Shown: positions 1,529-41,453, counted from the stretch's first letter. The stretch: DNA of 41,453 bases from a virus (IMGVR_UViG_3300022678_000013:1-41453), one strand, 5' to 3'. Numbers and translations: made by a program. The notes: generated from the letters alone by a model not told the origin.

Positions 1529-1542
1529 AATAATTTATTTTT

Positions 1543-1592
1543 ATAACACTTTATAACAAAGCATACGCTATCGCTTTACGCTTGTTATGCCG
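1543..1592 (-). repeat. attC-like hairpin element, copy 1
   Basis: On the minus strand this starts with CGGCATAACAAGCGT (1592-1578) and ends with TTGTTATAAAGTGTTAT (1559-1543). The ATAACAA/TTGTTAT arms (1588-1582 and 1559-1553) are a perfect 7-bp inverted repeat around a 22-nt variable middle. The same two end blocks occur at 6441-6493 on the plus strand with a different middle. The layout (short conserved inverted ends, variable imperfect-palindrome middle, placed just after a gene stop) is that of integron attC sites; the identity is inferred. Confidence 0.6.
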
Positions 1593-1612
1593 GTGTTGTA
1601 AAACATATTCTG

Positions 1613-1849
1613 CTACTCAATTTCACTAAAATACATTATTGCATCATCCAATGTTTCACAGTCTTTTAATTCATTTACTACTTGTTCCGCAGAAAACGAT
1701 TTTACAACACCGTGTATAGATAATTGCTTTTTAATCATATCTAAATATTTTCGGCTTTTAGTGCAGTCCCTACCTTCAATTCCGTGTAAAACATCTTCCT
1801 GTTCGCTTAAAAATTCATCAATAAATTCTATAATATCTAAGTTTGTCAT
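1613..1849 (-). CDS. Hypothetical acidic protein, 78 aa
   Basis: A small, mostly helical acidic protein with no recognised family, membrane segment or signal peptide. The C-terminal half (SAEQVVNELKDCETLDDAIM) looks like a short amphipathic helical hairpin. Acidic helical phage proteins of this size are often inhibitors that bind host proteins, but nothing here proves that. Its stop lies just before attC-like copy 1, and its start follows the 1906-2003 inverted-repeat spacer, so the gene is framed by hairpin elements on both sides like a cassette. Confidence 0.55.
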   Translation of the reverse strand: MTNLDIIEFIDEFLSEQEDVLHGIEGRDCTKSRKYLDMIKKQLSIHGVVKSFSAEQVVNELKDCETLDDAIMYFSEIE

Positions 1850-1905
1850 TTTTTATAATTTTCAGTTAATAATTCACGCAACTATCCATACACAAGTACG
1901 TTAGA

Positions 1906-2003
1906 GTTAATAGGTGGTCTAAATTTAGAGGTTATCTAAAAACGCCTGTGAAATGCACAAGCCTGTAAAACCGTATAATGTACAGTCATTACCACCTACT
2001 AAC
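1906..2003 (-). repeat. Spacer bounded by 13-bp inverted arms
   Basis: The arms GTTAATAGGTGGT (1906-1918) and ACCACCTACTAAC (1991-2003) pair at 12 of 13 positions. A smaller hairpin (TGTG-N5-CACA) lies inside. The element fills the spacer between two leftward genes and contains no plausible ORF. Its build resembles the other arm-bounded spacers of this window and is treated as a member of the same class with moderate confidence. Confidence 0.5.
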
Positions 2004-2029
2004 AATAACAATGTATATAAAAAATAAAC

Positions 2030-2281
2030 TTACAATTTATAATTTTTGTTTAACCATTCTACTAATTCAGTCTTTGTTATTCCTTTTTGCTGTCTAAACT
2101 CTTTCAGGGTTTCAGGCTCTTCTACTTCAACAAAAAATTCTAAAGTTTCTATGTTAGGTACGTGACCATACCCAGTAAATTCGTATGTAAACCTACTTTC
2201 TGGTCTACCGAAACTACATTCATTTCTTTCCATAGAAACCTGTTCTAAATTCAATTGTACTTGTTTTTTTACTGTCTTCAT
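2030..2281 (-). CDS. Hypothetical protein, 83 aa
   Basis: No family is recognised. The first half has alternating beta-type sequence; the last 30 residues (LKEFRQQKGITKTELVEWLN) look like a helix-turn-helix-like or helical tail rich in Lys and Glu. It begins 25 bp after the stop of the gene upstream on the minus strand, so the two are probably cotranscribed from the leftward promoter. Confidence 0.55.
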   Translation of the reverse strand: MKTVKKQVQLNLEQVSMERNECSFGRPESRFTYEFTGYGHVPNIETLEFFVEVEEPETLKEFRQQKGITKTELVEWLNKNYKL

Positions 2282-2306
2282 TTTATATAATTTAATTTGT
2301 TAATAT

Positions 2307-2666
2307 TTAATCGTTTACTTTTGCGTAATTACTAAGCCAACGCACATCAACCCAAGCATCAGTGAATGGTATTTGTTTTTTAACCATCACTTGGGGTGGT
2401 TCATAATCATATCCACCAAATCCATTCCCATCTTCCAAAGTTTCGATTTCTTGCTTTAATCCATTTTCTAATATTTTAACGTGTATAGGTTTCCAATAAA
2501 TATTGGTTAAATTAACCCCTATAATCTCAACCTTTACTTTTCTGAAATTTGGGTAATCCATTTCACATTTAACCTTACCTTCTGCAATTGCCAACAAACA
2601 ACTACGCATAACATCAGATATATGTAATGCCTCGTCTTTATTTTCTAAATTTTGTTCTTTACTCAT
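2307..2666 (-). CDS. Hypothetical protein, first gene of the leftward group, 119 aa
   Basis: No recognised family. The N-terminal 30 residues are acidic and helical; the middle (VKVEIIGVNLTNIYWKPIHV) is beta-type with a Trp. There is no membrane segment. It is the first full gene downstream of the leftward promoter near 2821-2851, with an unusually long leader of about 150 nt that contains an 8-bp hairpin and a 13-codon micro-ORF. Confidence 0.55.
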   Translation of the reverse strand: MSKEQNLENKDEALHISDVMRSCLLAIAEGKVKCEMDYPNFRKVKVEIIGVNLTNIYWKPIHVKILENGLKQEIETLEDGNGFGGYDYEPPQVMVKKQIPFTDAWVDVRWLSNYAKVND

Positions 2667-2685
2667 TATTTCAGTATATTTAATT

Positions 2686-2719
2686 TGTGTAGTAATTTAT
2701 TTAAGGTCGGCACTACACA
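2686..2719 (-). repeat. Leader hairpin with 8-bp perfect arms
   Basis: On the minus strand TGTGTAGT (2719-2712) pairs with ACTACACA (2693-2686) across an 18-nt loop. Just upstream on the minus strand, about 2731-2711, is TAACGGTTTGGATATGTG, which resembles the TAATGGTTTGTATATGGC block of the element at 11406. It lies in the 5' leader of the 2307-2666 gene, so it could also fold in the mRNA. Confidence 0.5.
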
Positions 2720-2751
2720 TATCCAAACCGTTAGAAACAATTAGCCAACGC

Positions 2752-2793
2752 TCATATAAAATTGAATTTGTCCCAATCTCCGTTGTTTTCCAT
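2752..2793 (-). other. Micro-ORF in the leftward leader, 13 codons
   Basis: The frame MENNGDWDKFNFI runs from 2793 to a TGA at 2754-2752, starting about 20 nt after the predicted transcript start and followed by the 2686-2719 hairpin. The order promoter, micro-ORF, hairpin, gene would suit a leader peptide, but it may be chance. Confidence 0.25.
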
Positions 2794-2820
2794 AGCTCAA
2801 ATAAAGTTTCAAATACAATT

Positions 2821-2851
2821 CAAATATAAGTGTATAATATTACAATGTCAA
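2821..2851 (-). promoter_or_regulatory. Bacteroidota-type leftward promoter
   Basis: Reading the minus strand, TTG (2851-2849), 20 nt, then TATATTTG (2828-2821). This fits the known Bacteroidota pattern of a -33 TTG and a -7 TAnnTTTG. It would start the leftward transcript near 2814. It lies back to back with the rightward promoter at 2880-2909. Confidence 0.6.
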
Positions 2852-2879
2852 GTGTTTTATAATATTTTATCCTAATATT

Positions 2880-2909
2880 TTGTAGTTACAAATATTTATA
2901 TTACCTTTG
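2880..2909 (+). promoter_or_regulatory. Bacteroidota-type rightward promoter, leaderless
   Basis: TTG (2880-2882), exactly 19 nt, then TACCTTTG (2902-2909). The ATG of the next gene is at 2914, only 4 nt after the -7 box, so the transcript should start at or next to the start codon. Confidence 0.75.
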
Positions 2910-2913
2910 ATTT

Positions 2914-3105
2914 ATGGAAACAAGAAAAAAGATATTTGCAAAAGACGTGGCCGAACGATACGGATGCGTACCGGAAACGGTTAAAACATGGGCGAGAAAC
3001 GGTAAAATACCAGGATATCAAACAGGCGGTGGCAAATGGTATTTTTATGAAGATGAGCTTTTAGAGGCGGACAAAGAAAGAGCGGAAAATTCATTAAAAG
3101 ATTAG
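2914..3105 (+). CDS. Excisionase/MerR-like DNA-binding protein, 63 aa
   Basis: The whole protein matches the winged-helix excisionase (HTH_17-like) layout: FAKDVAERYGCVPETVKTWA as helix, turn and recognition helix (residues 8-27), then GKIPGYQTGGGKWYFYEDEL as the wing with the usual GKW-[YF] stretch, and a charged C-terminal helix. Such proteins bend or bind DNA as excisionases or small transcription regulators. With no integrase in the window, a regulator of the early region is more likely. It is the first rightward gene and its mRNA is probably leaderless. The protein at 7878-8033 has the same type of fold and promoter. Confidence 0.75.
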   Translation: METRKKIFAKDVAERYGCVPETVKTWARNGKIPGYQTGGGKWYFYEDELLEADKERAENSLKD

Positions 3106-3108
3106 ATT

Positions 3109-3339
3109 ATGTCAGTAGAAATTAAATACATATGTGATCATTGTGATCGTAAATCATTTGTAAAAGACAATTGGATGGAGATAAAGGCGGTTGGTAATGA
3201 CGCATCTTTGAGTATAGAAAATAATATTCATGGCAGAAGCCTGATAAGCTCAAGCATGTATAAGCAAATGCACTTTTGTAGTAGAGAATGCTTCATAGAT
3301 CATTTTTTTAAACCTATTGAAGAACTATTAAAAGATTAA
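3109..3339 (+). CDS. Small zinc-binding hypothetical protein, 76 aa
   Basis: Two Cys pairs, C9-x2-C12 (ICDHC) near the start and C57-x3-C61 (FCSRECF) near the end, suggest one zinc site holding the ends of the chain together. The rest is polar, with no recognised family. It begins 3 nt after the preceding stop, so it is cotranscribed and possibly translationally coupled with the DNA-binding protein. Zinc-ribbon phage proteins of this size often bind nucleic acid or host proteins; the target is unknown. Confidence 0.6.
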   Translation: MSVEIKYICDHCDRKSFVKDNWMEIKAVGNDASLSIENNIHGRSLISSSMYKQMHFCSRECFIDHFFKPIEELLKD

Positions 3340-3341
3340 AC

Positions 3342-3367
3342 AAAAAAAGGCCGCTACTAGGCGACCT
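3342..3367 (-). terminator. Leftward-reading terminator inside the rightward early operon
   Basis: Read on the minus strand, AGGTCGC (3367-3361), a 6-nt loop and GCGGCCT (3354-3348) form a 7-bp stem with one G-U pair, followed by a T run (3348-3342). On the plus strand the stem has a C-A mismatch and no T run, so the signal works better leftward. Confidence 0.5.
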
Positions 3368-3383
3368 CTAAACACTAAAACAC

Positions 3384-3887
3384 ATGACAAAGATACAACA
3401 AAATTTAAAAGAAGCTATAGCCTTTGAAACAGCTATTAAGCATCCAGACTTATTTGAACACTCTATCAAGAAACTAAAAGATAGATTAAACCTTAAAAAC
3501 TACTACCGGTTTTCGGAGATAGAGGAGATGGGTTATCCAGAAAGACACTACGCATTACTTTCATTGGCTCATACGTTTAATCTCAATTACAAAGAAGATT
3601 TCAACGGAAACTTCCCATCTTCAAATAGAGAATTACAAATACTATCACGCAATAAGTTTTCAACGGCTTACCATGAGGCGTGTGAAGAGTTAGGATACAC
3701 TTACAGACGCGTTCCGATAGGTGACAATTACATTGAGTGTGGGAAAAAAGAAATACGAGTAAACGCATTTTATGATTCTGTTTTGTTTTCTAGGTTGACA
3801 GAAGAAGGCTGGAATCAAGACAGGGTACTAACCTGGAATATTAATAAAGAAGATGTTATTAAAGCAGTAAAAGGATTAATGTTATGA
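3384..3887 (+). CDS. Hypothetical protein, 167 aa
   Basis: No family is recognised. The first 50 residues are charged and helical; the middle is rich in Tyr and Asn (residues 40-85) and the last 40 residues hold a predicted mixed alpha/beta segment. There is no signal peptide or membrane segment. It lies between the early regulator genes and the recombination module (HTH protein, ERF), and its reading direction and tight spacing suggest cotranscription with them. Confidence 0.6.
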   Translation: MTKIQQNLKEAIAFETAIKHPDLFEHSIKKLKDRLNLKNYYRFSEIEEMGYPERHYALLSLAHTFNLNYKEDFNGNFPSSNRELQILSRNKFSTAYHEACEELGYTYRRVPIGDNYIECGKKEIRVNAFYDSVLFSRLTEEGWNQDRVLTWNINKEDVIKAVKGLML

Positions 3888-3903
3888 ATAAAGCAAAAGA
3901 ACT

Positions 3904-4110
3904 ATGAAAGAATCACAATGCAAACAACTAAAAAAATGGCTATCTAAGGGCTATGCAATTAACTCAATGTTAGCCTTTCAAAAGTTTGGTATAACAAGCC
4001 TACACAGAAGATTAACCGACCTTAGAAATGAAGGGTTTCCGGTTGATCAAGGAGAATGGAACGACATACAAAAGAAAGACTTTAAGAGGTATAAACTAAT
4101 AGAACTATGA
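3904..4110 (+). CDS. Helix-turn-helix protein (HTH_39-like), 68 aa
   Basis: The core AINSMLAFQKFGITSLHRRL followed by TDLRNEGFPV matches the short phage helix-turn-helix family HTH_39: a first helix, the GIT turn, a recognition helix with paired Arg, then L-R-x-x-G-[FY]-x-[VI]. Proteins of this family occur throughout phage early regions, commonly near recombination genes; a DNA-binding role is likely but the site is unknown. Its stop overlaps the start of the ERF gene by 4 nt (ATGA), indicating coupled translation. Confidence 0.75.
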   Translation: MKESQCKQLKKWLSKGYAINSMLAFQKFGITSLHRRLTDLRNEGFPVDQGEWNDIQKKDFKRYKLIEL

Positions 4111-4628
4111 AAAATTTATTTAAAGCATTAGCAGCATTTCAGCAAGACTGTCCGGTCATATTAAAAGATACTACCGGATACGGTTACAAATATGCAGACT
4201 TGCCACAAATATTTAATGTAATTAATCCGCTTCTAAAAAAACACGGATTAGGATTTTACCAATCAGTTGAAGCAAAGCAACTTAAAACTGTTGTGTTTCA
4301 TATCGAAAGTGGTGAGCTTATAGAGAGTTGCGCAGACATCCCACAGGAGGTATCCTTGAAAGGAATGAACGACTTCCAAGTGCTTGGTAGTGCAATTACA
4401 TATATGAGGCGTTATCAGCTTTCCAGTATGTTGGGAATCGTTACAGACAAAGACACGGACGCATCAGGGCAACAAGTGAATGGTAAAAAGAAAATGAAAG
4501 ATTTATCAGGTGCGATGAAAAAACTAAGAGAATCGCCAAACGCTGGCCAACTGTTTAATAAAATAATAGATCAATACGATCTTACTAAGGAACAACAAAC
4601 CCAATTAGAGGAATGTTTAGCTGGTTAG
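4107..4628 (+). CDS. erf: ERF-family single-strand annealing recombinase
   Basis: The sequence carries the ERF signature: the N-terminal stretch with YKYADLPQIFNVINPLLKKH, the aromatic GLGFYQSV, and the conserved end of the domain with GSAITYMRRYQLSSMLGI followed by an acidic DKDTDA. ERF proteins anneal complementary single strands during phage recombination, genome circularisation or concatemer repair. At 173 residues it is about the size of other short ERF proteins. It stands upstream of an SSB-like protein (5184-5462), the usual partner of annealing proteins. No exonuclease partner was found. Confidence 0.9.
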   Translation: MKNLFKALAAFQQDCPVILKDTTGYGYKYADLPQIFNVINPLLKKHGLGFYQSVEAKQLKTVVFHIESGELIESCADIPQEVSLKGMNDFQVLGSAITYMRRYQLSSMLGIVTDKDTDASGQQVNGKKKMKDLSGAMKKLRESPNAGQLFNKIIDQYDLTKEQQTQLEECLAG

Positions 4629-4639
4629 GTGTTGAAAAG

Positions 4640-4846
4640 ATGTTACAATTGTGTTCTCTTAAAGAGAATAGACAAGAGGACATAATTGTCAGGCTCATGG
4701 AGTTAGAAAACAGTGAGGATGAATTTGATTTGATGGAAATTGAATCGTTAATTGAAGAGATAAAAACAAATCAATTTGATCCTATTACTCATGGAAATTA
4801 CTACAATCAGACTGACATAAGAAAGCACTTAAAAAAATTAAAATGA
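4640..4846 (+). CDS. Hypothetical acidic protein, 68 aa
   Basis: An ATG at 4640 is chosen; an in-frame ATG at 4613 would overlap the erf end by 16 nt and add nine residues. The protein is helical and strongly acidic (residues 20-50 rich in Glu and Asp) and ends in a Lys-rich tail. No family is recognised. Its end overlaps the next start by 4 nt, so it is part of the recombination operon. Confidence 0.55.
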   Translation: MLQLCSLKENRQEDIIVRLMELENSEDEFDLMEIESLIEEIKTNQFDPITHGNYYNQTDIRKHLKKLK

Positions 4847-5187
4847 ACGAAAGCCTACAAGCAATAGAAAGAGTAGCGGATTGGTATAAGAACGCTAAAG
4901 GAGCTAGCCCTGAGCAACTACTAGAAGCCTTAAGAGTTGTAACATCTCATTTGTTTACACTTGAAACCGAACGGGCTAACTATCACAAACTTTATGAAGA
5001 TATTATATTCGATAAAACTAAAGATGGTGACAGTGTAGCCAGGGCAACTAATGCGGCAGAAGTTGAGGTGCCAGAGCTTTACATGTTAAGGCGAATTATG
5101 GAGGCGAGTTATAAAATGGCTGATGCAATCAGATCGCAAATAAGTTATTTAAAACACGAACAATCACATTTAAAAACAGAACAATGA
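4843..5187 (+). CDS. Hypothetical helical protein, 114 aa
   Basis: Almost entirely helical by composition, with heptad-like spacing in the last third (LRRIMEASYKMADAIRSQIS), which suggests a coiled coil or helical bundle. No family is recognised. The 4-nt overlaps at both ends place it in one translational unit with the ERF operon and the SSB-like gene, so a role in DNA replication or recombination is a reasonable inference. Confidence 0.6.
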   Translation: MNESLQAIERVADWYKNAKGASPEQLLEALRVVTSHLFTLETERANYHKLYEDIIFDKTKDGDSVARATNAAEVEVPELYMLRRIMEASYKMADAIRSQISYLKHEQSHLKTEQ

Positions 5188-5462
5188 TAAAGATTAAAAT
5201 CAATGTCAATAATATTGACAAAAACAGACTATTTAAAGGTGAAAAAGGAACCTATCTAAATGCCGTTCTCATACCTACTCCTGACAATCAATACAATGAT
5301 TACATGATTGTTGAAGATATTAGTAAAGAGGAAAGAGAACGAGGCACTAAAGGTAATATTTTAGGTAATGCAAAAGAGTTTAAAAGTGACTCTCAACAGC
5401 ATACTAAACAAGATAATCAAGTTAATTCTGATGAAATAAAAGAAGATGATCTCCCATTTTAA
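5184..5462 (+). CDS. SSB-like single-stranded DNA-binding protein, 92 aa
   Basis: The N-terminal 60 residues are beta-type (MIKIKINVNNIDKNRLFKG, then GTYLNAVLI and DYMIVEDIS), compatible with a reduced OB fold. Residues 60-85 are a polar low-complexity linker, and the protein ends in DEIKEDDLPF. This acidic tail with terminal Pro-Phe is the hallmark of bacterial SSB, which uses it to recruit replication and repair proteins. Bacteroidota phages carry similar short SSB-like proteins. No canonical SSB family motif is seen in the core, so the call rests on the tail, the size and the erf neighbourhood. Confidence 0.7.
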   Translation: MIKIKINVNNIDKNRLFKGEKGTYLNAVLIPTPDNQYNDYMIVEDISKEERERGTKGNILGNAKEFKSDSQQHTKQDNQVNSDEIKEDDLPF

Positions 5463-5465
5463 CAA

Positions 5466-5537
5466 ATGACTAAGCAACAACAAAACATATTAATCTGGAT
5501 GCTAATAGCTATCCTGTTTTTACTACTTAAAATTTAA
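5466..5537 (+). CDS. Very small membrane protein, 23 aa
   Basis: MTKQQQNILIWMLIAILFLL plus a short tail: a polar N-terminus followed by one hydrophobic segment that fills most of the chain. It starts 3 nt after the SSB-like stop and ends 5 nt before the next start, which supports translation. It is one of several tiny membrane proteins in this operon. Function unknown. Confidence 0.4.
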   Translation: MTKQQQNILIWMLIAILFLLLKI

Positions 5538-5542
5538 ATGAC

Positions 5543-5800
5543 ATGACACACTTAACAAACACCGTAACACCACACTTTGTTACATCAAAAATTAATGATG
5601 GGTGGTGGGAAAAAGACAAAGAATATACTGTTTTAATCAACGTAATGACAGATGGGAGAATACAGTTTTTTGATAATTCTGTTAAATCCGGCCCTAATTT
5701 AAAAATCTATAAAACGTCTAAACAGATGTTTAATGAATTTGAATTTGATGAAATTGACAAGCAAAAGATTTTAGAACGATTATCTTTTTATTTTAACTAA
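5543..5800 (+). CDS. Hypothetical protein, 85 aa
   Basis: A soluble protein with beta-type N-terminal half (WWEKDKEYTVLINVMTDGRI) and a helical charged C-terminal half. No family is recognised. It shares the start MTHL with the next gene (MTHE), and both follow an ACATG start context, which suggests similar translation signals. Confidence 0.5.
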   Translation: MTHLTNTVTPHFVTSKINDGWWEKDKEYTVLINVMTDGRIQFFDNSVKSGPNLKIYKTSKQMFNEFEFDEIDKQKILERLSFYFN

Positions 5801-5812
5801 ATTAAAGCTTAC

Positions 5813-5977
5813 ATGACACACGAAGAATTACAAGAAGCGATAAAAGTTATAATGATGTTTATTATAGGAATATCAACGGCTTTATTAATAGTCTTTACAT
5901 TTTTGAGCTATATAGCAAATAAAGACACAAAGGAGATAGAAGAAACATTTAAACGATTGAAAGATGGACGAAGGTAA
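5813..5977 (+). CDS. Small membrane protein with charged tail, 54 aa
   Basis: The layout is a short polar N-terminus, one membrane segment (about residues 11-34, VIMMFIIGISTALLIVFTFL) and a Lys/Glu-rich cytoplasmic-type tail (NKDTKEIEETFKRLKDGRR). No family is recognised. It overlaps the next small gene by 14 nt in another frame. Membrane peptides of this kind in early phage operons may alter the host envelope or exclude other phages; that is speculation here. Confidence 0.5.
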   Translation: MTHEELQEAIKVIMMFIIGISTALLIVFTFLSYIANKDTKEIEETFKRLKDGRR

Positions 5978-6065
5978 ACACAGAGCAATATTTTTCACAA
6001 TTTTAATGGTATCTCTTACGATAGTAACTGTACTTATTATTTTAGGATTTAACTATTTTGGGTAA
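5964..6065 (+). CDS. Very small membrane protein, 33 aa
   Basis: MDEGKHRAIFFTILMVSLTI and onward: eight polar residues and then one hydrophobic segment to near the end. It overlaps the gene before it by 14 nt in a different frame, which is an arrangement typical of coupled phage genes. No family is recognised. Confidence 0.4.
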   Translation: MDEGKHRAIFFTILMVSLTIVTVLIILGFNYFG

Positions 6066-6119
6066 TGAAAAAGATATGGGCTGGTTTTCAGCCTATTTAA
6101 ACAGATAAAGATTATAGAT

Positions 6120-6437
6120 ATGGAAATTGAATTTTTAGATTGGTACAGCAAAAACGAAGATAGATTTGCTCACGGACAATTTGATGAAAAGCAAATAGCG
6201 TACTCAGCGTGGCTTGATGGTAAAAATCGAAACTCTAAGGCTGAAAACTTGCCTATATCGGATGTTATGTGCCGTGCTTCATTTCGTGGTGAAGCGACTA
6301 AAGAACAACTCTACATTATACTCGAATACATAGATGATATGAAACAACGAGGATATGTATTTGAAAAGCACGAGCGAACTGACTTAGATAATGGTAATGT
6401 AAAACTTGATTATGTACTTGCTCTGCATGGTACCTAA
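6120..6437 (+). CDS. Hypothetical protein with WY/AW-L-G motif, 105 aa
   Basis: The first 35 residues (FLDWYSKNEDRFAHGQFDEK, then AYSAWLDGK) share a pattern with the 46-residue protein at 7702-7842 (FEKWYDDGAALLSADDIKKA, then CYLSWLSG): WY, a 14-18 residue gap, D-x-K, then Y-x-[SA]-W-L-x-G. This looks like a small helical module present twice. The rest (TKEQLYIILEYIDDMKQRGY) is helical. No family is recognised. Its stop is followed after a few bases by an attC-like element. Confidence 0.6.
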   Translation: MEIEFLDWYSKNEDRFAHGQFDEKQIAYSAWLDGKNRNSKAENLPISDVMCRASFRGEATKEQLYIILEYIDDMKQRGYVFEKHERTDLDNGNVKLDYVLALHGT

Positions 6438-6440
6438 CAT

Positions 6441-6493
6441 CGGCATAACAAGCGTTACGAGGAACGAGTAAATACATTGTTATAAAGTGTTAT
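6441..6493 (+). repeat. attC-like hairpin element, copy 2
   Basis: It starts with CGGCATAACAAGCGT (6441-6455) and ends with TTGTTATAAAGTGTTAT (6477-6493). ATAACAA (6445-6451) and TTGTTAT (6477-6483) are perfect inverted arms around 25 nt that hold an inner CGTT/AACG pair. The same end blocks are found at 1592-1543 on the minus strand, while the middles differ. It sits right after the stop of the 6120-6437 gene. Confidence 0.6.
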
Positions 6494-6509
6494 CATAAAA
6501 CTTAAAATT

Positions 6510-8416: not shown

Positions 8417-9127
8417 ATGTCTATGTCAGATAAAGGATTTATAAAATTACATAGATCATTAATAGATTGGGAGTGGTGGGACGACCATAATGCTGTCCGA
8501 TTATTAGTCTATTTATTGGTATCTGTCAACTGGGAAACTAAGAAGTGGAAGGGCGTCCTTGTTGAAAAGGGGAGTATAATTACCTCATGGGAGAATCTTT
8601 CAATTAAGTTAGGATTGAGTAAACAGCAAGTACGCACTGCAATGGCTAAATTAGAATCAAGTAAAGAAGTAACACGCAAACCAACAAACAAATATCAGCT
8701 TATAAAGCTAAATAAGTGGGATAAATTGCAGTTTATAGAGAATGATAACACACAGAATAACAGGCAAGTAACAGGCAAGCAACATTCAAATAACACTCAA
8801 ATAACACCAACTAAAGAAGTTAAAGAATATAAAGAAGAGGAAGAATATAAAGAAAAGAGTATGATACCCACACAATTAGAAGTTGAAAAATATTTTTTGG
8901 ATAATGGGTATTCCACAGACGGAGCTAAGAGGGCATTTGATTATTATCAAACTTCAATAGAAGGCAAACCAAGATCAAAATACTGGAAAGACAGCAAAGG
9001 CAATCCTGTGAAAAACTGGAAGCAAAAAATGAGAGCTGTTTGGTTTAAGGATGAATTTAAAACAAAAACTAACGGAGTTGAATATCACCCAGGCACTAAC
9101 ATCCCTAAAAACAAAATAATACAATGA
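8417..9127 (+). CDS. Replication initiation protein / helicase loader-like, 236 aa
   Basis: The N-terminal 100 residues match the winged-helix start of phage replication proteins: GFIKLHRSLIDWEWWDDHNA, then the hydrophobic LLVYLLVSVNWE, then WENLSIKLGLSKQQVRTAMA as the HTH with the wing to about residue 100. A polar linker rich in Asn, Thr and Lys-Glu follows (105-150). The C-terminal part (GYSTDGAKRAFDYYQTS, later NWKQKMRAVW) resembles the DnaT/DnaD-type region that contacts helicase and single-stranded DNA. It probably binds the origin and loads the primase-helicase encoded next, whose start overlaps its stop by 4 nt. MSD at 8423 is an alternative start. Confidence 0.75.
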   Translation: MSMSDKGFIKLHRSLIDWEWWDDHNAVRLLVYLLVSVNWETKKWKGVLVEKGSIITSWENLSIKLGLSKQQVRTAMAKLESSKEVTRKPTNKYQLIKLNKWDKLQFIENDNTQNNRQVTGKQHSNNTQITPTKEVKEYKEEEEYKEKSMIPTQLEVEKYFLDNGYSTDGAKRAFDYYQTSIEGKPRSKYWKDSKGNPVKNWKQKMRAVWFKDEFKTKTNGVEYHPGTNIPKNKIIQ

Positions 9128-10857
9128 TATTTTGGGAAGACATAGATTTTAAAGGGCGTAAGTCAGGAACTATAAAAACTACCTGTCCGGTATGTAGCGA
9201 AACAAGGAAAAAGAAAAAAGACCCTTGTTTGTCTGTTAACTTGGATAAAGGCCTTGCGAAATGCTGGCATTGTGACGAAATATCGATTAGAGATTACAAG
9301 GAACTAACAAAAAAATATGATCTCCCTCCTCAAGAGTGGAAAAACTATACAAACCTTTCCGACAAAACAGTCAAATGGTTTGCTTCGAGAGGAATAACTC
9401 AAAAGACATTAATTGAAAATAGAATAACGGAAGAAAAGCACTACCAGCCAGCTCAACAAAAGGAAATGAATAACATTGTTTTCAATTATTTTGAGGGAAA
9501 TAAGCTGGTCAATAAAAAATATAGATCAGGTAATAAGGATTTCACACAATGTAAAAACGCAAAAAAGATATTTTACGGAATTAACGATGTTGTTAGTGAG
9601 GATGAATGTTACATAGTTGAGGGAGAAATGGATAAACTTGCTTTGTACGAGGCAGGGATAAAAAATTGCATAAGCGTTCCAAATGGTGCCAAAGATTCAA
9701 GCGATTATTTTGAGAACTGTGAGAGCTATCTAAAGGACATTACAAAATTCTACATTGCAGTAGACATGGATCAGCCCGGTAGAGAGCTAGAGAGCTCGCT
9801 TATTAAACGATTAGGTAAACATAGATGTGTTAGGGTGCATTTTAAAAATAAAGACGCTAACGACGATTTAATTGAGTCATTGTTAATTTTAGAAGAAAGC
9901 CTAAATAGAATTACTGAATATCCAATTGACGGCACTTACACAGCACTAGATATAGAAGATGAAATACTTGATTTGTATGATAACGGGTACGAGCAAGTAA
10001 TAAGGCCAAAAAACAATTTTAAGAGATTTAATGAATCATTTGGGATTATCCCTGGGCAACTGATTACTATCACGGGAATCCCAGGACACGGTAAAAGTAA
10101 TTTTATTGAATGGTATGTATTGAATTTGATAAATGATTTGGATAAAAAATGTAGTTTCTATTCTCCAGAACATTTTCCTATGCAACTACACCAAAGCGTT
10201 TTATCTGAAAAAGTAACAGGAAAGCCGTTTATGAACTCGCTTCCTAATCATGATCGTGTAAGCAAAGAAGAAATAAAGCTATACAACAAATGGAGCAACA
10301 ACAAGATATATTTAACTATTCCAGAAAAAGCAATTTTGCCAGATTGGGATTGGTTGTTTAATAAGTTCGAAGAGCAGCTTTATAGATATGGAATTGATTT
10401 TTTTGTTATAGACGCATGGAATAAGGTTAAGCTTCAAAGAGGGGATCTGCACGAAATGAACGAGGTGCTTGCCCGTCTTACTTTATTTTGTCAAATGCAT
10501 AATGTCAATATATTTTTGATTGCTCACCCTACAAAAATGAGGAAAGATGAAAAAGAAGGTATTTATCAGATACCAACGTTATACGATGTGAAAGGAACAG
10601 GAGATTTTTTTGATCAAAGTCATTGTGGCCTTACGGTTTACCGATATTTTGGAGAGGATGAGTACACAAAAGTAATACCCACAAAGATAAAATTCAGACA
10701 CCAGGGAAAAGTTGGTGAAGAAATTTTATTTAAATTTAATAAGGCAAATGGAAGATATTACGAGTACAATGATTTGCCAAATAATCATTCTTGGATAAAG
10801 GAGGATGAACAAAAAGAACTTATTTATGATGGATATGATCCAGATACAGGATTTTAG
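9124..10857 (+). CDS. Primase-helicase (T7 gp4 / DnaB type), 577 aa
   Basis: Three parts are visible. A zinc-binding part uses C21, C24, C47 and C50 (CPVC and CWHC). A Toprim part has EGEMD at 166-170 and DMDQPG at 214-219, the acidic metal sites. The helicase part has Walker A GIPGHGKS at 318-325, Walker B ending in Asp430 (FFVID) and a DnaB-type HPTK segment (AHPTKMRKDEK), followed by a QSHCGLTVYR stretch typical of this family. It should unwind DNA as a ring and synthesise primers at the fork. Its start overlaps the initiator protein. No phage DNA polymerase is present, so the host polymerase probably does the copying. Confidence 0.9.
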   Translation: MIFWEDIDFKGRKSGTIKTTCPVCSETRKKKKDPCLSVNLDKGLAKCWHCDEISIRDYKELTKKYDLPPQEWKNYTNLSDKTVKWFASRGITQKTLIENRITEEKHYQPAQQKEMNNIVFNYFEGNKLVNKKYRSGNKDFTQCKNAKKIFYGINDVVSEDECYIVEGEMDKLALYEAGIKNCISVPNGAKDSSDYFENCESYLKDITKFYIAVDMDQPGRELESSLIKRLGKHRCVRVHFKNKDANDDLIESLLILEESLNRITEYPIDGTYTALDIEDEILDLYDNGYEQVIRPKNNFKRFNESFGIIPGQLITITGIPGHGKSNFIEWYVLNLINDLDKKCSFYSPEHFPMQLHQSVLSEKVTGKPFMNSLPNHDRVSKEEIKLYNKWSNNKIYLTIPEKAILPDWDWLFNKFEEQLYRYGIDFFVIDAWNKVKLQRGDLHEMNEVLARLTLFCQMHNVNIFLIAHPTKMRKDEKEGIYQIPTLYDVKGTGDFFDQSHCGLTVYRYFGEDEYTKVIPTKIKFRHQGKVGEEILFKFNKANGRYYEYNDLPNNHSWIKEDEQKELIYDGYDPDTGF

Positions 10858-10898
10858 AGGCATATGAACCAATAAACAAACTAACATGAAAATAAAAA
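10855..10898 (+). repeat. 44-bp direct repeat, copy 1
   Basis: It begins at the TAG stop of the primase-helicase gene, runs through AGAGG-C-ATATGAACCAATAAAC and ends inside codon 5 of the next gene. The second copy at 11108-11151 differs at one base (C to T). Both contain a tiny frame ATGAACCAATAA directly before the real start. Confidence 0.85.
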
Positions 10899-11110
10899 CT
10901 GGAAAACACGTCAAGATAATATGTGAACTGAATGAGGGAGATCAAGTAATGACTGATGGATGTGGGTATAAATTAGACGGTAAGATACATAAGGTAAAAG
11001 AAATAAAATTTAATATTGGGCATTGTAAATCAGGTGTTATGGTTAGGATTTCAGGATATGCAGGATGGTTAGACTCTGATTGGTTAGATAAAGTAAATCC
11101 TTCAGCATAG
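10886..11110 (+). CDS. Hypothetical protein, 74 aa
   Basis: A small beta-rich protein: the pattern GDQVMTDGCGYKLDGKIHKV with later MVRISGYAGWLDSDWLDKV suggests a short SH3-like or KOW-like barrel, and such small phage proteins often end with a WxDxDWL stretch. No family can be named with certainty. Its start lies inside the 44-bp repeat, and the same repeat follows its stop. Confidence 0.55.
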   Translation: MKIKTGKHVKIICELNEGDQVMTDGCGYKLDGKIHKVKEIKFNIGHCKSGVMVRISGYAGWLDSDWLDKVNPSA

Positions 11111-11151
11111 AGGTATATGAACCAATAAACAAACTAACATGAAAATAAAAA
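11108..11151 (+). repeat. 44-bp direct repeat, copy 2
   Basis: It begins at the TAG stop of the 10886-11110 gene and ends inside the next gene's codon 5, matching 10855-10898 at 43 of 44 positions. The unit bounded by the two copies is exactly one gene. Confidence 0.85.
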
Positions 11152-11405: not shown

Positions 11406-11530
11406 GTGGCTAATGGTTTGTATATGGCACGTAGCCACTCACAGACCTAACCAAAGAGAAAATAATTTAATAACCGCACATAGTTTAAAAAATGGCTGAC
11501 AGGCTATGTGCTATATACTTTGTTAGCCAC
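11406..11530 (+). repeat. attC-like hairpin element, 125 bp
   Basis: The left end GTGGCTAA (11406-11413) and GTATATGGCACGTAG (11420-11434) pairs with the right end CTATGTGCTATATAC (11504-11518) and TTAGCCAC (11523-11530), leaving a small bulge of unequal length (6 against 4 nt). Two local hairpins compete with it: GTGGCTA/TAGCCAC (11406-11412, 11432-11438) and GCACATAG/CTATGTGC (11476-11483, 11504-11511). Long imperfect arms with bulged bases are typical of attC-type sites. It ends 10 nt before the next ATG. Confidence 0.6.
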
Positions 11531-11540
11531 CGTTTTTATT

Positions 11541-11816
11541 ATGAAAAGACAAGAAATACCAGAATGGGATGGGATAATAGAATATAGAAGCCCAGTTTTT
11601 GAGGAATATGAATTTGACTTAGAAATAGCGAAAGGAGGAGGAAAAACATTTGATATGGACCCGACTACAAGGGACGGAATCAGTTTTGCTGCTTTAAATT
11701 ATGCTCGTGAAATTGTTGGAGACCCAGATAATAGCAAATGGCTTGAACGAAGAAAACTTACAGATGCTTTTAAAATGGGCGTTGAATATGCTAAACGTTA
11801 CTTAAATGGTGGCTAA
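11541..11816 (+). CDS. Hypothetical protein framed by hairpin elements, 91 aa
   Basis: The ATG at 11541 (MKRQEIPEW) is preferred over an upstream GTG at 11508, which would read through the hairpin arm. The protein is soluble and acidic in its first half and helical in its second (SFAALNYAREIVGDP, later AFKMGVEYAKRYLNGG). No family is recognised. Its stop lies inside a second copy of GTGGCTAATGG (11809-11819) that also begins the element upstream (11406-11416), so the gene sits between matching ends like an integron cassette. Confidence 0.55.
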   Translation: MKRQEIPEWDGIIEYRSPVFEEYEFDLEIAKGGGKTFDMDPTTRDGISFAALNYAREIVGDPDNSKWLERRKLTDAFKMGVEYAKRYLNGG

Positions 11817-12067
11817 TGGAAATAATAAACGCATGTGGGAGTGGCAGAGCAGGGAATGTACTGGAATAGCAAGGGATATGAAAAACGATTCCGTTTCAGA
11901 ATCAGGCATGGTGCAATTCCATGCCTCTCACATTGCGTTTATTTATTGTTATAGTGTTAAGTATAACAGTCAGGCTGGATTAAAAGCTCCGAACCTTCCT
12001 GACTGACCAAAAGCGACAAAGGAGCAATAACAGTGGAGTGATGTTCCACACCCGCTTGCTGTTATAC
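11809..12067 (+). repeat. Composite hairpin element, about 260 bp
   Basis: It starts with GTGGCTAATGG at the end of the preceding gene. Within it, AATAAACGCATGTGGGAG (about 11823-11840) pairs almost fully with the complementary stretch at about 11926-11946, around an inner perfect hairpin GGCATGG/CCATGCC. A second part (11961-12067) has 9-bp perfect outer arms GTATAACAG/CTGTTATAC (11961-11969, 12059-12067) and inner AGTCAGG/CCTGACT (11968-11974, 11998-12004). It lacks a believable gene and looks like two attC-like sites in tandem. Confidence 0.5.
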
Positions 12068-13026: not shown

Positions 13027-13124
13027 CAACTAAACAGATAAAAGCGGACACCATTAAATTTAGAATGCAAACACGTTCTAAATACTTTAACATGGTAGAA
13101 TATAAAGTAGTAAATCAAAAATAG
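13023..13124 (+). CDS. Small basic protein, 33 aa
   Basis: MTTKQIKADTIKFRMQTRSK and a short tail: Lys/Arg-rich with no recognised family. The 4-nt overlap with the preceding gene (ATGA) is the main argument that it is translated. It closes the accessory segment before the packaging genes. Confidence 0.4.
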   Translation: MTTKQIKADTIKFRMQTRSKYFNMVEYKVVNQK

Positions 13125-13242
13125 ATTTGCGAAGGTTTGCTAAAACAAGTATATTGTCAATAGTTATGTTAATCAGTTATTATAATATATCATCAAGCAT
13201 AAGCCTACCGAAAAACATTACATTTACATATTCATACAAGTA

Positions 13243-13593
13243 ATGCCAACACTAAAAACAATAAACAAAAGAAAACCGAAGTCAAATTGGTCGAAGCATG
13301 ACAACTTCTACAATAGATCATCATGGAGATCATTAAGAAACAAGAAACTAAGGAAAGACCCATTGTGTGAAGTATGTAAGAAAGAAGGAAAGATTAAGAC
13401 GGCCAGTATAGTAGATCACCACAAACCAAAGAGACTATGGCCTGAGCTGGCACTAACCCCAAGCAACCTAACAAGCATGTGTGAATCACACCATAATAAA
13501 AAATCAAGAATAGAACTCGACATACACTCTCAGTATGAATGGCATGCAGTATTCGACAATCATAAGCTATTTAATAAATTACTAAAACCATGA
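13243..13593 (+). CDS. HNH endonuclease of the packaging region, 116 aa
   Basis: The zinc and catalytic residues are all present: C42 and C45 (CEVC), D58-H59-H60 (VDHHKP), N75 (SNL), C80 and the H83-H84-N85-K86 ending (MCESHHNKK). The basic N-terminus with SSWRSLRNKKLRKDP is typical of phage HNH proteins encoded beside the terminase, such as HK97 gp74, which work with the terminase in cutting genome ends. The position upstream of small and large terminase fits this role. Confidence 0.88.
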   Translation: MPTLKTINKRKPKSNWSKHDNFYNRSSWRSLRNKKLRKDPLCEVCKKEGKIKTASIVDHHKPKRLWPELALTPSNLTSMCESHHNKKSRIELDIHSQYEWHAVFDNHKLFNKLLKP

Positions 13594-13817
13594 AAAAAAT
13601 ATTATCAATCATATTTCTAACATCCATAATTTTAGGTTTTTTGGCCATTTTAATACATGAATTATATATTGAACCACTATCTAAAATTAAATGGTTAGAT
13701 GAATGGTATGAATATATTATTGCAATCGTTGTACTTTCAATTATTTACACTATTATCATTTTTGCAATAAAGGGTCTTGGTATATTGATTGATAAGGCTG
13801 TAGACAATATCTATTAA
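13590..13817 (+). CDS. Membrane protein with two membrane segments, 75 aa
   Basis: Hydrophobic segments at about residues 4-25 (ILSIIFLTSIILGFLAILIH) and 40-65 (YIIAIVVLSIIYTIIIFAIK) are separated by a short polar loop with Trp and Lys. No family is recognised. It overlaps the HNH gene by 4 nt. The hairpin topology is compatible with a holin, but the other lysis genes are far away, so this is only a possibility. Confidence 0.55.
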   Translation: MKKILSIIFLTSIILGFLAILIHELYIEPLSKIKWLDEWYEYIIAIVVLSIIYTIIIFAIKGLGILIDKAVDNIY

Positions 13818-13829
13818 ACTATATAAGAA

Positions 13830-13955
13830 ATGAATCCAGCATTACAAATAATAGGACTAATAAGCATTGGCATTGTATTAGGATGGCTGAGCTTAGGAAT
13901 AGCTGTCTATCACATTACTATTAAGTTTAAAGATAAATCATCAAACCATAATTAA
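13830..13955 (+). CDS. Small membrane protein, 41 aa
   Basis: One membrane segment (ALQIIGLISIGIVLGWLSLG) followed by a short basic tail with Lys and His. It fits between its neighbours with short gaps. No family is recognised. Confidence 0.45.
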   Translation: MNPALQIIGLISIGIVLGWLSLGIAVYHITIKFKDKSSNHN

Positions 13956-13957
13956 AC

Positions 13958-14176
13958 ATGATACACGGAATACTAAAAATATTGTTTATTGCTGCATCTG
14001 TAGTTGTTGCAGGAAGGACAGCACATGATGCAATTAAAGGTACACTGAATGAGTACACCTATACAAAGTCAGAATATAGGCAGATACAAATGAATAAAAA
14101 ATATCAAAAAGCATTAAGGATTAAAAAGTTTAAAGATAGGAGACTAGACAAAAGGACAAAACTATCTGATAATTAA
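13958..14176 (+). CDS. Small protein with N-terminal hydrophobic segment, 72 aa
   Basis: Residues 3-20 (HGILKILFIAASVVVAGR) form a hydrophobic anchor or weak signal, followed by a Lys/Arg-rich helical tail (QMNKKYQKALRIKKFKDRRL). It starts 2 nt after the previous stop. A membrane-tethered basic protein; function unknown. Confidence 0.5.
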   Translation: MIHGILKILFIAASVVVAGRTAHDAIKGTLNEYTYTKSEYRQIQMNKKYQKALRIKKFKDRRLDKRTKLSDN

Positions 14177-14202
14177 TAGAAAGATATACAGACAGCTACT
14201 AT

Positions 14203-14358
14203 ATGGCATCCATTGAATTTGTAACAAAAAAAGGGAGGGTAGGATCAATCCTTAAAAGAAAGCCCCGTTTAACCGTCATAACCCAAAAATTTTCTCATTA
14301 TAATTTTACATTAGCCCGGGGGTTGTACCAAAATGAAACACTTTTAAACCAGACATAA
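14203..14358 (+). CDS. Small basic hypothetical protein, 51 aa
   Basis: MASIEFVTKKGRVGSILKRK and the remainder are basic, with no membrane segment. The frame fits exactly between its neighbours, ending 1 nt before the next ATG at 14360. No family is recognised. Confidence 0.4.
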   Translation: MASIEFVTKKGRVGSILKRKPRLTVITQKFSHYNFTLARGLYQNETLLNQT

Positions 14359-14359
14359 A

Positions 14360-14560
14360 ATGACAAAAAAAGAAAAAGAAGCCCAAAGATTAATTGTTGA
14401 GGAGATAGAAAAAGCAACAAACTTACTTGTTAGTACTTGTGAGAATTGGTGCAAAGAAACATCGGCAAAAGCAGTACCATTGTTGCTAGTACAATCATTT
14501 GCGGAAACAATGATTAGTTCATTCAAAAAAGGAGCATATGACAAGGAGGTAGAAAAATGA
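14360..14560 (+). CDS. Hypothetical helical protein, 66 aa
   Basis: Mostly helical, with a charged N-terminus (MTKKEKEAQRLIVEEIEKAT), two Cys residues around residue 30 and the stretch SAKAVPLLLVQSFAETMISS. No family is recognised. It overlaps the small terminase gene by 4 nt and may be made together with it. Confidence 0.5.
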   Translation: MTKKEKEAQRLIVEEIEKATNLLVSTCENWCKETSAKAVPLLLVQSFAETMISSFKKGAYDKEVEK

Positions 14561-14904
14561 AACCACACAAAGACTTGCCGAAAGAGGCAAAGATGATTTT
14601 TGAACAAATAGTAAAGCACCTAAAAGGTAAATCAATGCCTATTGATTACTTAGAACTTAGCATGTTATCGATGGCATATCATCAATACTTCGAAGCCATA
14701 AGAAATGGAGCCAATGAAGGATTTTTGAATATGTATAAAAACGGAAGCGGAACCACTATACAGATAAATGGATATCAAACCCAACTACATCAAGCCTATT
14801 CAAATATCCTAAAGCATTCAAGTAAATTTGGAATGAATCCAGCTGATAGAGAAAAAATAAAAGCATTTGCAGAAACAAAATCAGAAATGCCAGACATAGA
14901 ATGA
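14557..14904 (+). CDS. terS: Terminase small subunit, P27 family
   Basis: The sequence follows the P27-type small terminase pattern: LPKEAKMIFEQIVKHLKG, then D-x-x-x-L-x-x-L-x-x-Y-x-x-Y (residues 30-45), QINGYQTQLHQAYSNILKHS, and the conserved end KFGMNPADREKI. It recognises phage DNA and loads the large subunit during packaging. The length of 115 residues is usual. Its stop overlaps the terL start by 4 nt. Confidence 0.88.
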   Translation: MKPHKDLPKEAKMIFEQIVKHLKGKSMPIDYLELSMLSMAYHQYFEAIRNGANEGFLNMYKNGSGTTIQINGYQTQLHQAYSNILKHSSKFGMNPADREKIKAFAETKSEMPDIE

Positions 14905-40299: not shown

Positions 40300-40797
40300 A
40301 TGACCCCTAACCCAATGATAAAGCTAATAGTAAAAATAATAGGGATTAGTATTTTGATTGTTTGGGTGTGTTCTTGCTCAGCTAACTATCATTTAAAGCG
40401 ATCAAAATACCATTTAGAAAAAGCCAAATCAAAGGGTTACGTTTCGTTAGTAGATACAGTATACAAAACAGTACCTATCGCTATACCAGAGGCCCGTCAC
40501 GATACGACCTTTTATGATGTGGGTGATACTGTCATTATAACCAAAGATCGCTTAAAAACGATTTATAAGCGTGACACAATTACAAATGAAGTTTACATTG
40601 AATCTATTTGTGAAGCAGACACAATTTATAAAGAAGTTCCGGTTACGGTTCAAGAGACTGTTTACATTGAAAAAGGCTTGACAGATATTTTATATGATCA
40701 ATTCGGACTTACTAAATGGTGGCAAAAAATACTATTCTGGTTGTCTATTCCTTTGATTATTGTTATACTGGTTTTAATTAGGTATTTGTTTAAGTAG
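40300..40797 (+). CDS. Putative unimolecular spanin (lipoprotein with C-terminal membrane segment), 165 aa
   Basis: The N-terminus KLIVKIIGISILIVWVCSCS is a lipoprotein signal with lipobox VCSC and predicted lipidation at Cys26. The middle 100 residues are periplasmic, beta-rich and Lys/Asp/Thr-rich (VDTVYKTVPIAIPEA, then TVYIEKGLTDILYDQFGLTK). The last 25 residues (WLSIPLIIVILVLIRYLFK) form a membrane anchor. A protein tied to the outer membrane by lipid and to the inner membrane by its C-terminus is the design of u-spanins such as T1 gp11. It follows the endolysin region and would disrupt the outer membrane in lysis. Confidence 0.7.
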   Translation: MTPNPMIKLIVKIIGISILIVWVCSCSANYHLKRSKYHLEKAKSKGYVSLVDTVYKTVPIAIPEARHDTTFYDVGDTVIITKDRLKTIYKRDTITNEVYIESICEADTIYKEVPVTVQETVYIEKGLTDILYDQFGLTKWWQKILFWLSIPLIIVILVLIRYLFK

Positions 40798-41079
40798 CTG
40801 TGCATTTGAGTAAATCAACACGCCTTTCATGTATATCTTAAATTCCTTGTTTTCAAACTCGCTTCCAAGTTGAGTAGGATTCGGTGGATAATTATTCCAC
40901 AGCACCCAACCAGTTGCCCTGTTGTTTTGTAATGACAGGTAAACTGAATCAAATCCGATTCTATATTTCTCTCCATCAACGACAACTTCTGTATCCCAGT
41001 AATTAGTTGAAGGAGAAAAACGCACGCTAACACATGGTATAGCAAATGCCTTTCGTAGTTTTCTGATAATCCTTTTCAT
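40774..41079 (-). CDS. Hypothetical protein convergent with the spanin gene, 101 aa
   Basis: A leftward gene whose 3' end overlaps the spanin gene by 24 nt. The N-terminus is basic (MKRIIRKLRKAFAIP), followed by beta-type sequence (VVDGEKYRIGFDSVYLSLQN, later FKIYMKGVLIYSNAQLL). No signal peptide or membrane segment is clear and no family is recognised. It points the same way as the leftward group and could be its first member if the genome is circular. Confidence 0.55.
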   Translation of the reverse strand: MKRIIRKLRKAFAIPCVSVRFSPSTNYWDTEVVVDGEKYRIGFDSVYLSLQNNRATGWVLWNNYPPNPTQLGSEFENKEFKIYMKGVLIYSNAQLLKQIPN

Positions 41080-41453
41080 ATTTCAAAATTTAATGTTTCA
41101 ATAAAGTTTGTGGTAGGCACTTGCCATACCATCGGTCCGTTCAGGCATAATTGCCTACGGCCGATAACTTCATGAAAAGAAAAATATAAGGGTCGCTTGG
41201 GCGATTTATCGGGTTCACTAGGGTAGCATTGCTGTACGCTTACGTTAGGCTATATACGGCTGACAATCCGTGCCATGAATCGCCCCACGCTTTATATATA
41301 GACACTAGACTATCCGGTAAGCCACTATGTTGCTAGAAACATGAGACAGACCCTCAATGGCCAGCAAACCCTTATATTTATTCTAATCATTCTCGTTATC
41401 TAATTATGCCTGAACGCTCGGGCGAGATGCAACGCCCTGGAACAGACATCTAT
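41080..41453. other. Gene-free end region
   Basis: No believable complete gene on either strand. Most of it is the inverted duplication at 41114-41416, described separately. The last 50 bases may encode the end of the first gene if the genome is circular. It contains the same GTATATRGC-type blocks found in the other hairpin elements. Confidence 0.6.
41114..41416. repeat. Large imperfect inverted duplication
   Basis: CGTTCAGGCATAATT (41138-41152) is repeated in perfect inverted form at 41402-41416, and AAATATAAGGGT (41182-41193) at 41368-41379. The stretches between and inside these blocks also align as diverged inverted copies around a centre near 41280. A further 8-bp pair GGGCGATT/AATCGCCC (41199-41206, 41278-41285) and GTAGGCA/TGCCTAC (41114-41120, 41151-41157) form local hairpins. 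Confidence 0.65.

Follow-up and report, generated by a model that had tools for sequence, protein, structure and literature searches.

Two short palindromic elements in the viral record IMGVR_UViG_3300022678_000013, a 41,453-base siphophage sequence (hereafter the window, on the full length of which all positions are counted), raise the question of whether a phage can exchange small genes as integron-type cassettes while encoding no integron integrase. A 15-mer, CGGCATAACAAGCGT, lies at 1592-1578 on the minus strand (copy A) and at 6441-6455 on the plus strand (copy B), and a 17-mer, TTGTTATAAAGTGTTAT, at 1559-1543 (-) and 6477-6493 (+), respectively; the likeness of the copies reaches outward as far as AACA[C/T]CGGC. 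The inner arms ATAACAA/TTGTTAT are the same in both, with 22 nt (A) or 25 nt (B) between them, and the unconserved middle measures 18 nt in A and 21 nt in B. The shared ends, 7-bp arms and opposite strands were thus all present as an earlier reading of the DNA (the sequence-only reading) had described them. TTGTTATAAAGTGTTAT occurs exactly twice in the whole record, its reversed control does not occur, and its spacing to CGGCATAACAAGCGT is about equal at the two places, so chance is a poor explanation of the pair. Our answer, which we consider probable, is that this siphophage carries integron-type cassettes without an integrase, that these would be exchanged by way of circles with the help of a host recombinase, and that incoming genes would be fused in frame to leaders already in place.

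Each element follows a small open reading frame (ORF) on its own strand, as claimed by the sequence-only reading. For hairpin A (1541..1600, minus strand; sequence and fold), R'' (TACAAC, 1600-1595) starts 12 nt past the stop of the ORF at 1613-1849 (-), and is followed by a spacer, the inner arms and R' (GTT, 1547-1545). In hairpin B (6429..6495, plus strand; sequence and fold), the stop codon TAA of the ORF at 6120-6437 (+) sits within R'' (CC-TAAC), and R' is the GTT at 6489-6491. In the predicted folds an unpaired spacer separates the outer stem (AACAC/GTGTT) from the inner one; the linear folds were weak and the extra base of A lay on L' instead of L''. Since each copy runs in the direction of its own genes, their opposite strands need no further cause, and a reading as transposon ends was rejected for that reason. 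A and B are real elements and most likely form attC-type cassette ends. A cassette would then be a short gene body, from G^TT to AAC or AAT, followed by an attC-like hairpin with the order R''-spacer-L''...L'-spacer-R'.

The predicted travelling unit is the gene that precedes the hairpin and not the hairpin sequence itself. ORF B (6120..6437, plus strand) comprises a 48-aa leader and a cassette body (VMCRASFRGEATKEQ...LALHGT) with its stop within R''. It had one relative in the viral contigs, aligning over residues 46-105 only. That contig, L046, comes from an unrelated phage and is 90% identical in DNA from window position 6265 (L046 651) to the TAAC of R''; identity was 0.32 over the 60 nt before G^TT, 0.92 after it and 0.45 past AAC. 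In L046 another hairpin and another leader precede the body and another attC-like hairpin follows it, and the leader of the window is not shared. A scan of genome contigs with body B gave no match. Cassette B, defined by homology and fold, covers 225 bp (6265..6489, plus strand) with ends that pair (GTTATGTGCCGTGC / GCATGGTACCTAAC), and is preceded by a leader-bearing attC-like hairpin at 6062..6270 (+) with the arms GATATGGGCTGGTTTTCAGC / GCTGAAAACTTGCCTATATC, R'' GTAAT, R' GTT at 6264 and a structural score of 40.

Cassette A (161 bp, 1547..1707, minus strand) extends from TTGTAAAATCG to the G before the TT of R', and its ends likewise pair (GTTGTAAAATCGTTTTCTGC / GCAGAATATGTTTTACAAC). ORF A (1613..1849, minus strand) joins a 47-aa leader from the loop of the upstream hairpin to a 31-aa C-terminal module, VVKSFSAEQVVNELKDCETLDDAIMYFSEIE. 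From G^TT on, the cassette DNA is 94% identical to L047/L048, which are one virus, and 80% identical to L049; in L047 the likeness ends at ACAACACC. Three different leaders precede this body in the window, L047 and L049, all joined in the same frame, and the downstream hairpins differ between the window, L047/L048 and L049, so body, hairpin and leader form a mosaic. About 15 nt of the L' arm ahead of G^TT are also alike in these relatives, which blurs the upstream edge of the cassette by that length. Close to its beginning, body A lacks a start codon of its own. The leader-bearing hairpin in front of it (1706..1907, minus strand; GTGTATGGATAGTTGC / GCAATTATCTATACAC, R'' TCTAAC, R' GTT at 1708-1706) had a structural score of 34.4, and shuffles of the same strand never reached 25. 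Its type of L box also occurs in L049 and in Polaribacter phage P12002L.

For a third gene the outcome was predicted before the search, namely that ORF C (2307..2666, minus strand), with the leader MSKEQNLENKDEALHISD and a cassette body from GTT 2612, would share with relatives only the part past that GTT. The one relative, L060, bore this out: DNA identity was 90% from TGNTG^TT onward, and the preceding leader and hairpin differ. The protein-level match reaches out to residue 3, so the edge of body C is decided by the DNA alignment. In the window the leader-bearing hairpin before this cassette lies at 2604..2738 (-), with R'' TTTCTAAC, R' GTTATGCG at 2612 and a structural score of 33.1. The R'' of L060, TTACGCATAAC, pairs with the start of cassette C, and the equivalent R'' of the window has decayed. 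Bodies B and C open with GTT-ATG, so that a start within the body is possible for these two.

Taken over 60 nt, identity in the four comparisons (A/L047, A/L049, B/L046 and C/L060) was 0.78-0.93 past G^TT and 0.32-0.47 ahead of it, and across the AAC of R'' it fell from 0.85-0.97 to 0.42-0.45 (A/L047, B/L046). Bodies A, B and C are thus bounded upstream by G^TT, where integron crossover takes place, and downstream by the AAC of R''. Synonymous and nonsynonymous codon differences numbered 14 and 2 for B/L046, 21 and 7 for C/L060, and 4 and 1 for A/L047; the gene bodies are coding and under purifying selection. The suggestion that attC-like sites bound exchangeable small genes was supported by the recurring edges of the three bodies, as well as by a differing cassette in a sister phage and by further sites in the window, both described below.

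The first and last 14-20 nt of cassettes A and B pair mutually, which makes sense if the cassette was closed as a circle. When joined circularly, both give longer attC-like hairpins, with folding energies of -19.5 kcal/mol (z -5.4) for A versus -10.6 (z -1.7) for the linear site, and -11.2 kcal/mol (z -1.8) versus -5.5 for B. Most likely, then, cassettes would leave as circles, with R'' pairing with the cassette start, and such circles would be inserted again at the G^TT of a different hairpin. A miniature inverted-repeat transposable element or a repetitive extragenic palindromic element, inserting by itself behind genes, would also give two near-identical copies in one genome, and it would suit the fact that bodies keep different hairpins in different phages. 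We regard it as very improbable: what recurs across phages is a gene body with defined ends, the A/B hairpin was found nowhere else in the viral and genome contigs scanned, no target duplication was seen, and the body ends pair with each other.

The nearest relative of the window phage is G001 (L044+L045 reverse complement), with 66% identity in TerL. In the window the gene at 14557-14904 and terL overlap by 4 bp, whereas in G001 4.67 kb of cassettes, one of them encoding an N6/N4 DNA methylase, fill the junction between the homologues of these genes. G001 also carries the hairpin found before cassette B of the window, and past its G^TT the cassette differs. Head-to-tail arrays of such units are present in G001 and L049. 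That unrelated phages share these bodies, cut off at the crossover point, and that the sister phage has a different cassette behind one and the same hairpin, provides comparative evidence for cassette movement between phages. Elsewhere in G001, positions 13117-14430, directly ahead of the first cassettes, encode a 437-aa tyrosine recombinase (PF00589 over the cut-off, no match to TIGR02249), and the reverse complement at 8447-9286 encodes a protein with a long AAWSAAESA-type repeat.

No integron integrase was found in the window, as the sequence-only reading had said. The TIGR02249 integron integrase profile matched none of six records, the window included, and in this respect the window falls short of a complete integron; PF00589 had no match in the window and matched all 14 control genomes. 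Any such enzyme must therefore have an outside source, unless the mosaic arose in a different way. One such way might be ordinary phage mosaicism: the Erf-like annealing protein of the phage (4107-4628) would join DNA at short palindromes whose common GTT/AAC ends are coincidental, and no integron integrase would be involved. The protein is encoded in the window, which has no detectable tyrosine recombinase, and the sharing of GTT and part of L' leaves the breakpoints uncertain by a few bases. We consider this unlikely, since the edges match R' and R'' in three unrelated bodies, both ends of each body pair mutually as for a former circle, and the units stand in head-to-tail arrays in G001 and L049. 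Under the cassette explanation the host would supply the enzyme, a tyrosine recombinase of integron type.

The hairpin loops suggest a larger story than the sequence-only reading had told, in that they appear to hold the start of the next gene. In many hairpins an ATG lies in the loop and its reading frame continues across L' and R' and on into the cassette that follows. Seven phages contained 67 attC-like sites, versus 17 in the same sequences reversed; some of these contigs were chosen for sharing a body with the window, so the counts are not an unbiased survey. Leader ORFs crossed into the cassette at 28 of the 67 sites (3 of 17 in reversed sequence), the GTT being a Val codon in 22 of them and falling in the other phases in 5 and 1. 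Control phage contigs (400 kb) gave 28 sites and 7 leader ORFs. For A, B and C seven leader-body junctions are known, every one of them in frame. An incoming cassette would accordingly find a resident leader, with its ATG in the loop and its frame running through L' and the crossover, and the leaders may be translated as fusions with the cassette bodies.

Hairpins so placed might alternatively act in RNA, as terminators or as antitermination (nut/put-like) elements of divergent early operons. The antitermination sites nutL and nutR lie on the transcribed strand of leftward and rightward genes, and so do A and B. They are situated about 1.1 and 3.5 kb into their gene runs and not close to where these begin, and gene exchange at G^TT, in-frame read-through of the hairpins and the arrays in other phages would be left unexplained. 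We regard this reading as very improbable.

Returning to integron-type cassettes, the attC-like hairpins carrying the start of the next gene would be what is new here; literature searches, confined to open-licence papers, yielded no description of a start codon in attC loops. With such starts, a cassette lacking its own could be translated wherever it stands in an array, and integron recombination would become a source of fusion proteins. A further possibility, about which we lean somewhat towards doubt, is that the system shuffles protein parts, with loops giving the start and N-terminus and cassettes giving C-termini, recombined in frame into new fusions, and with bodies and hairpins separately exchangeable at R''. 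If true, separate exchange at R'' would bear on how cassettes acquire attC. The changed hairpin at R'' behind a single gene offers a sequence handle on that question.

Compared with canonical attC sites, the R box pair (crossover G^TT, AAC in R'') is present in A, B and C, and the L boxes and unpaired central spacer are present as well; E0 and E1 (both described below) and the hairpin before B have AAT in R'' instead. GTT is constant in R' and the bases after it vary (GTTGTAA, GTTATGT, GTTATGC, GTTAGCG). In the hairpin before A, G.T pairs stand in place of extra-helical bases. Loss of such bases is reported to weaken strand choice while recombination persists (PMC2727003). As the extra-helical bases are not canonical, we say of the units that they work in the manner of integron cassettes and refrain from classing the hairpins as canonical attC. 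The bulge on L' and the reversed R' of B (GTTAGGT) hinted at attC sites in reversed orientation; the order of the genes and the homology edges establish the forward orientation, and the reversed one was rejected on that ground.

Several observations weigh against the cassette explanation. By the rule of the sequence-only reading itself, many matches to the hairpin at gene ends elsewhere would have supported it, and hits confined to these two places, taken alone, would have told against it; exact-pattern scans of viral and genome contigs gave no further copy of the A/B hairpin, the sole viral match (L003) being a chance one inside a coding gene. R' often departs from the GTTRRRY consensus, and extra-helical bases are not on the R''-L'' arm (A has its extra base on L', B none clear). 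The covariance model described below gave hairpin A an E value of 6.8 and did not list hairpin B. Judged on energy alone the linear folds are weak, with z -2.0 for A and -0.2 for B, and for B even the circular form (z -1.8) is little better than its shuffles. No body has more than three relatives, with L047 and L048 counting as one virus, the contig set was partly selected as stated above, and the leader peptides are not in themselves conserved. Finally, recombination, the circle and the fusion protein are inferred, as are the recombinase and any benefit to the phage.

A structural scan of the window detected six strong attC-like hairpins, namely those before A (1902-1706, minus strand), C (2732-2610, minus strand) and B (6073-6264, plus strand), and E0, E1 and D (41132-41031, minus strand). 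E0 (11406..11530, plus strand; GTGGCTAAT ... GTATATGGCACGTAGCC / GGCTATGTGCTATATAC ... GTTAGCCAC) and E1 (11809..11953, plus strand; AATAATAAACGCA / TGCGTTTATTTATT, R' GTTATAG) were found by both the structural scan and a covariance model. Cassette E (11523..11948, plus strand; ORF 11541-11816) has ends that pair (GTTAGCCACC / GGTGGCTAAT). The leader-bearing hairpin D (41029..41145, minus strand; ATGGTATGGCAAGTGCCT / AGGCATTTGCTATACCAT, R' GTTAGCG at 41031, structural score 40) goes with ORF D (40774..41079, minus strand), which has the leader MKRIIRKLRKAFAIPC and the body VSVRFSPSTNYW.... The covariance model was trained on nine hairpins, all from other phages, and its three best matches in the window were E0 (11406-11530, E 0.0008), the hairpin before C (2604-2738, E 0.07) and E1 (11809-11953, E 0.65), the support being clear for the first and weak for the other two. 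On other sequence it matched cassette-bearing phages, some of the matches being its own training sites, and gave none in control contigs. In named phages, tblastn with A, B, C, D and E found no homologue. An Rfam search returned no match. The region before hairpin D (41418-41137, minus strand) has no clear ORF and is flanked by the inverted repeat GTTCAGGCATAATT/AATTATGCCTGAAC. A 44-nt repeat, 98% identical, lies at 10855-10898 and 11108-11151, and each copy ends where a small ORF starts.

Among known systems, attC sites and CALINs, that is, at least two attC sites with no neighbouring integrase, have been published in phages (Qi et al. 2023, PMC9892861). The window qualifies as CALIN-like through E0, C and E1 by the independent model and A, B and D by structure or homology, and the cassette genes of A, B and C recur in other contexts in other phages; its cassettes would form a dispersed set of this kind. 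P12002L, from the same study, resembles the window in that small genes are flanked by attC-like hairpins and no integrase is present. It shares the L-box type of the window site at 1904-1706 and has leader-bearing sites at 32800 and 40764; its annotated gp60 extends over a site of this kind. Some of its hairpins carry the CGTTTTAATG loop, as in L046, L047 and L049. The A/B hairpin sequence is not shared. IntI1 recombines five of six phage attCs, P12002L_attC2 among them (PMC9892861); a term search of that text found no mention of start codons, translation or in-frame leaders in attC. The likeness to P12002L leads us to guess at a Bacteroidota host. The window genes encode an Erf-like annealing protein, helicase loader, primase-helicase, terminase, portal, protease, capsid and tape measure. 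The CGTTTTAATG loop is conserved in attC-like and 'empty' hairpins (L046 1128; L055 1597, 1629 and 3967; the L049 region; L061 30003-30061) and is not found in the window.

With the cassettes of sedentary chromosomal integrons, the attC sites of which have R and L boxes, a spacer and a terminal structure that varies (PMC2727003), the units have in common the order R''-spacer-L''-loop-L'-spacer-R', the edge at the G^TT crossover, the stop codon in R'' (B) and the head-to-tail arrays (G001, L049). Unlike in those integrons, no integrase was found in the window, the extra-helical bases are non-canonical, the cassettes are scattered on both strands, and the next gene often has its start in the loop. 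ORF-11 in attI1 and the fused class 1 cassettes (PMC8876359, PMC4670013) likewise have a short ORF, with its own start, that crosses the recombination point and aids start-less cassettes. ORF-11 lies in attI and acts by coupling after a stop codon, whereas the ORFs described here lie in attC-like loops within the array and run in frame into the cassette; fused class 1 cassettes arise through loss of attC, whereas here the hairpin is intact. Of the known cases in which coding extends over a recombination site, ORF-11 and the fused cassettes are the nearest.

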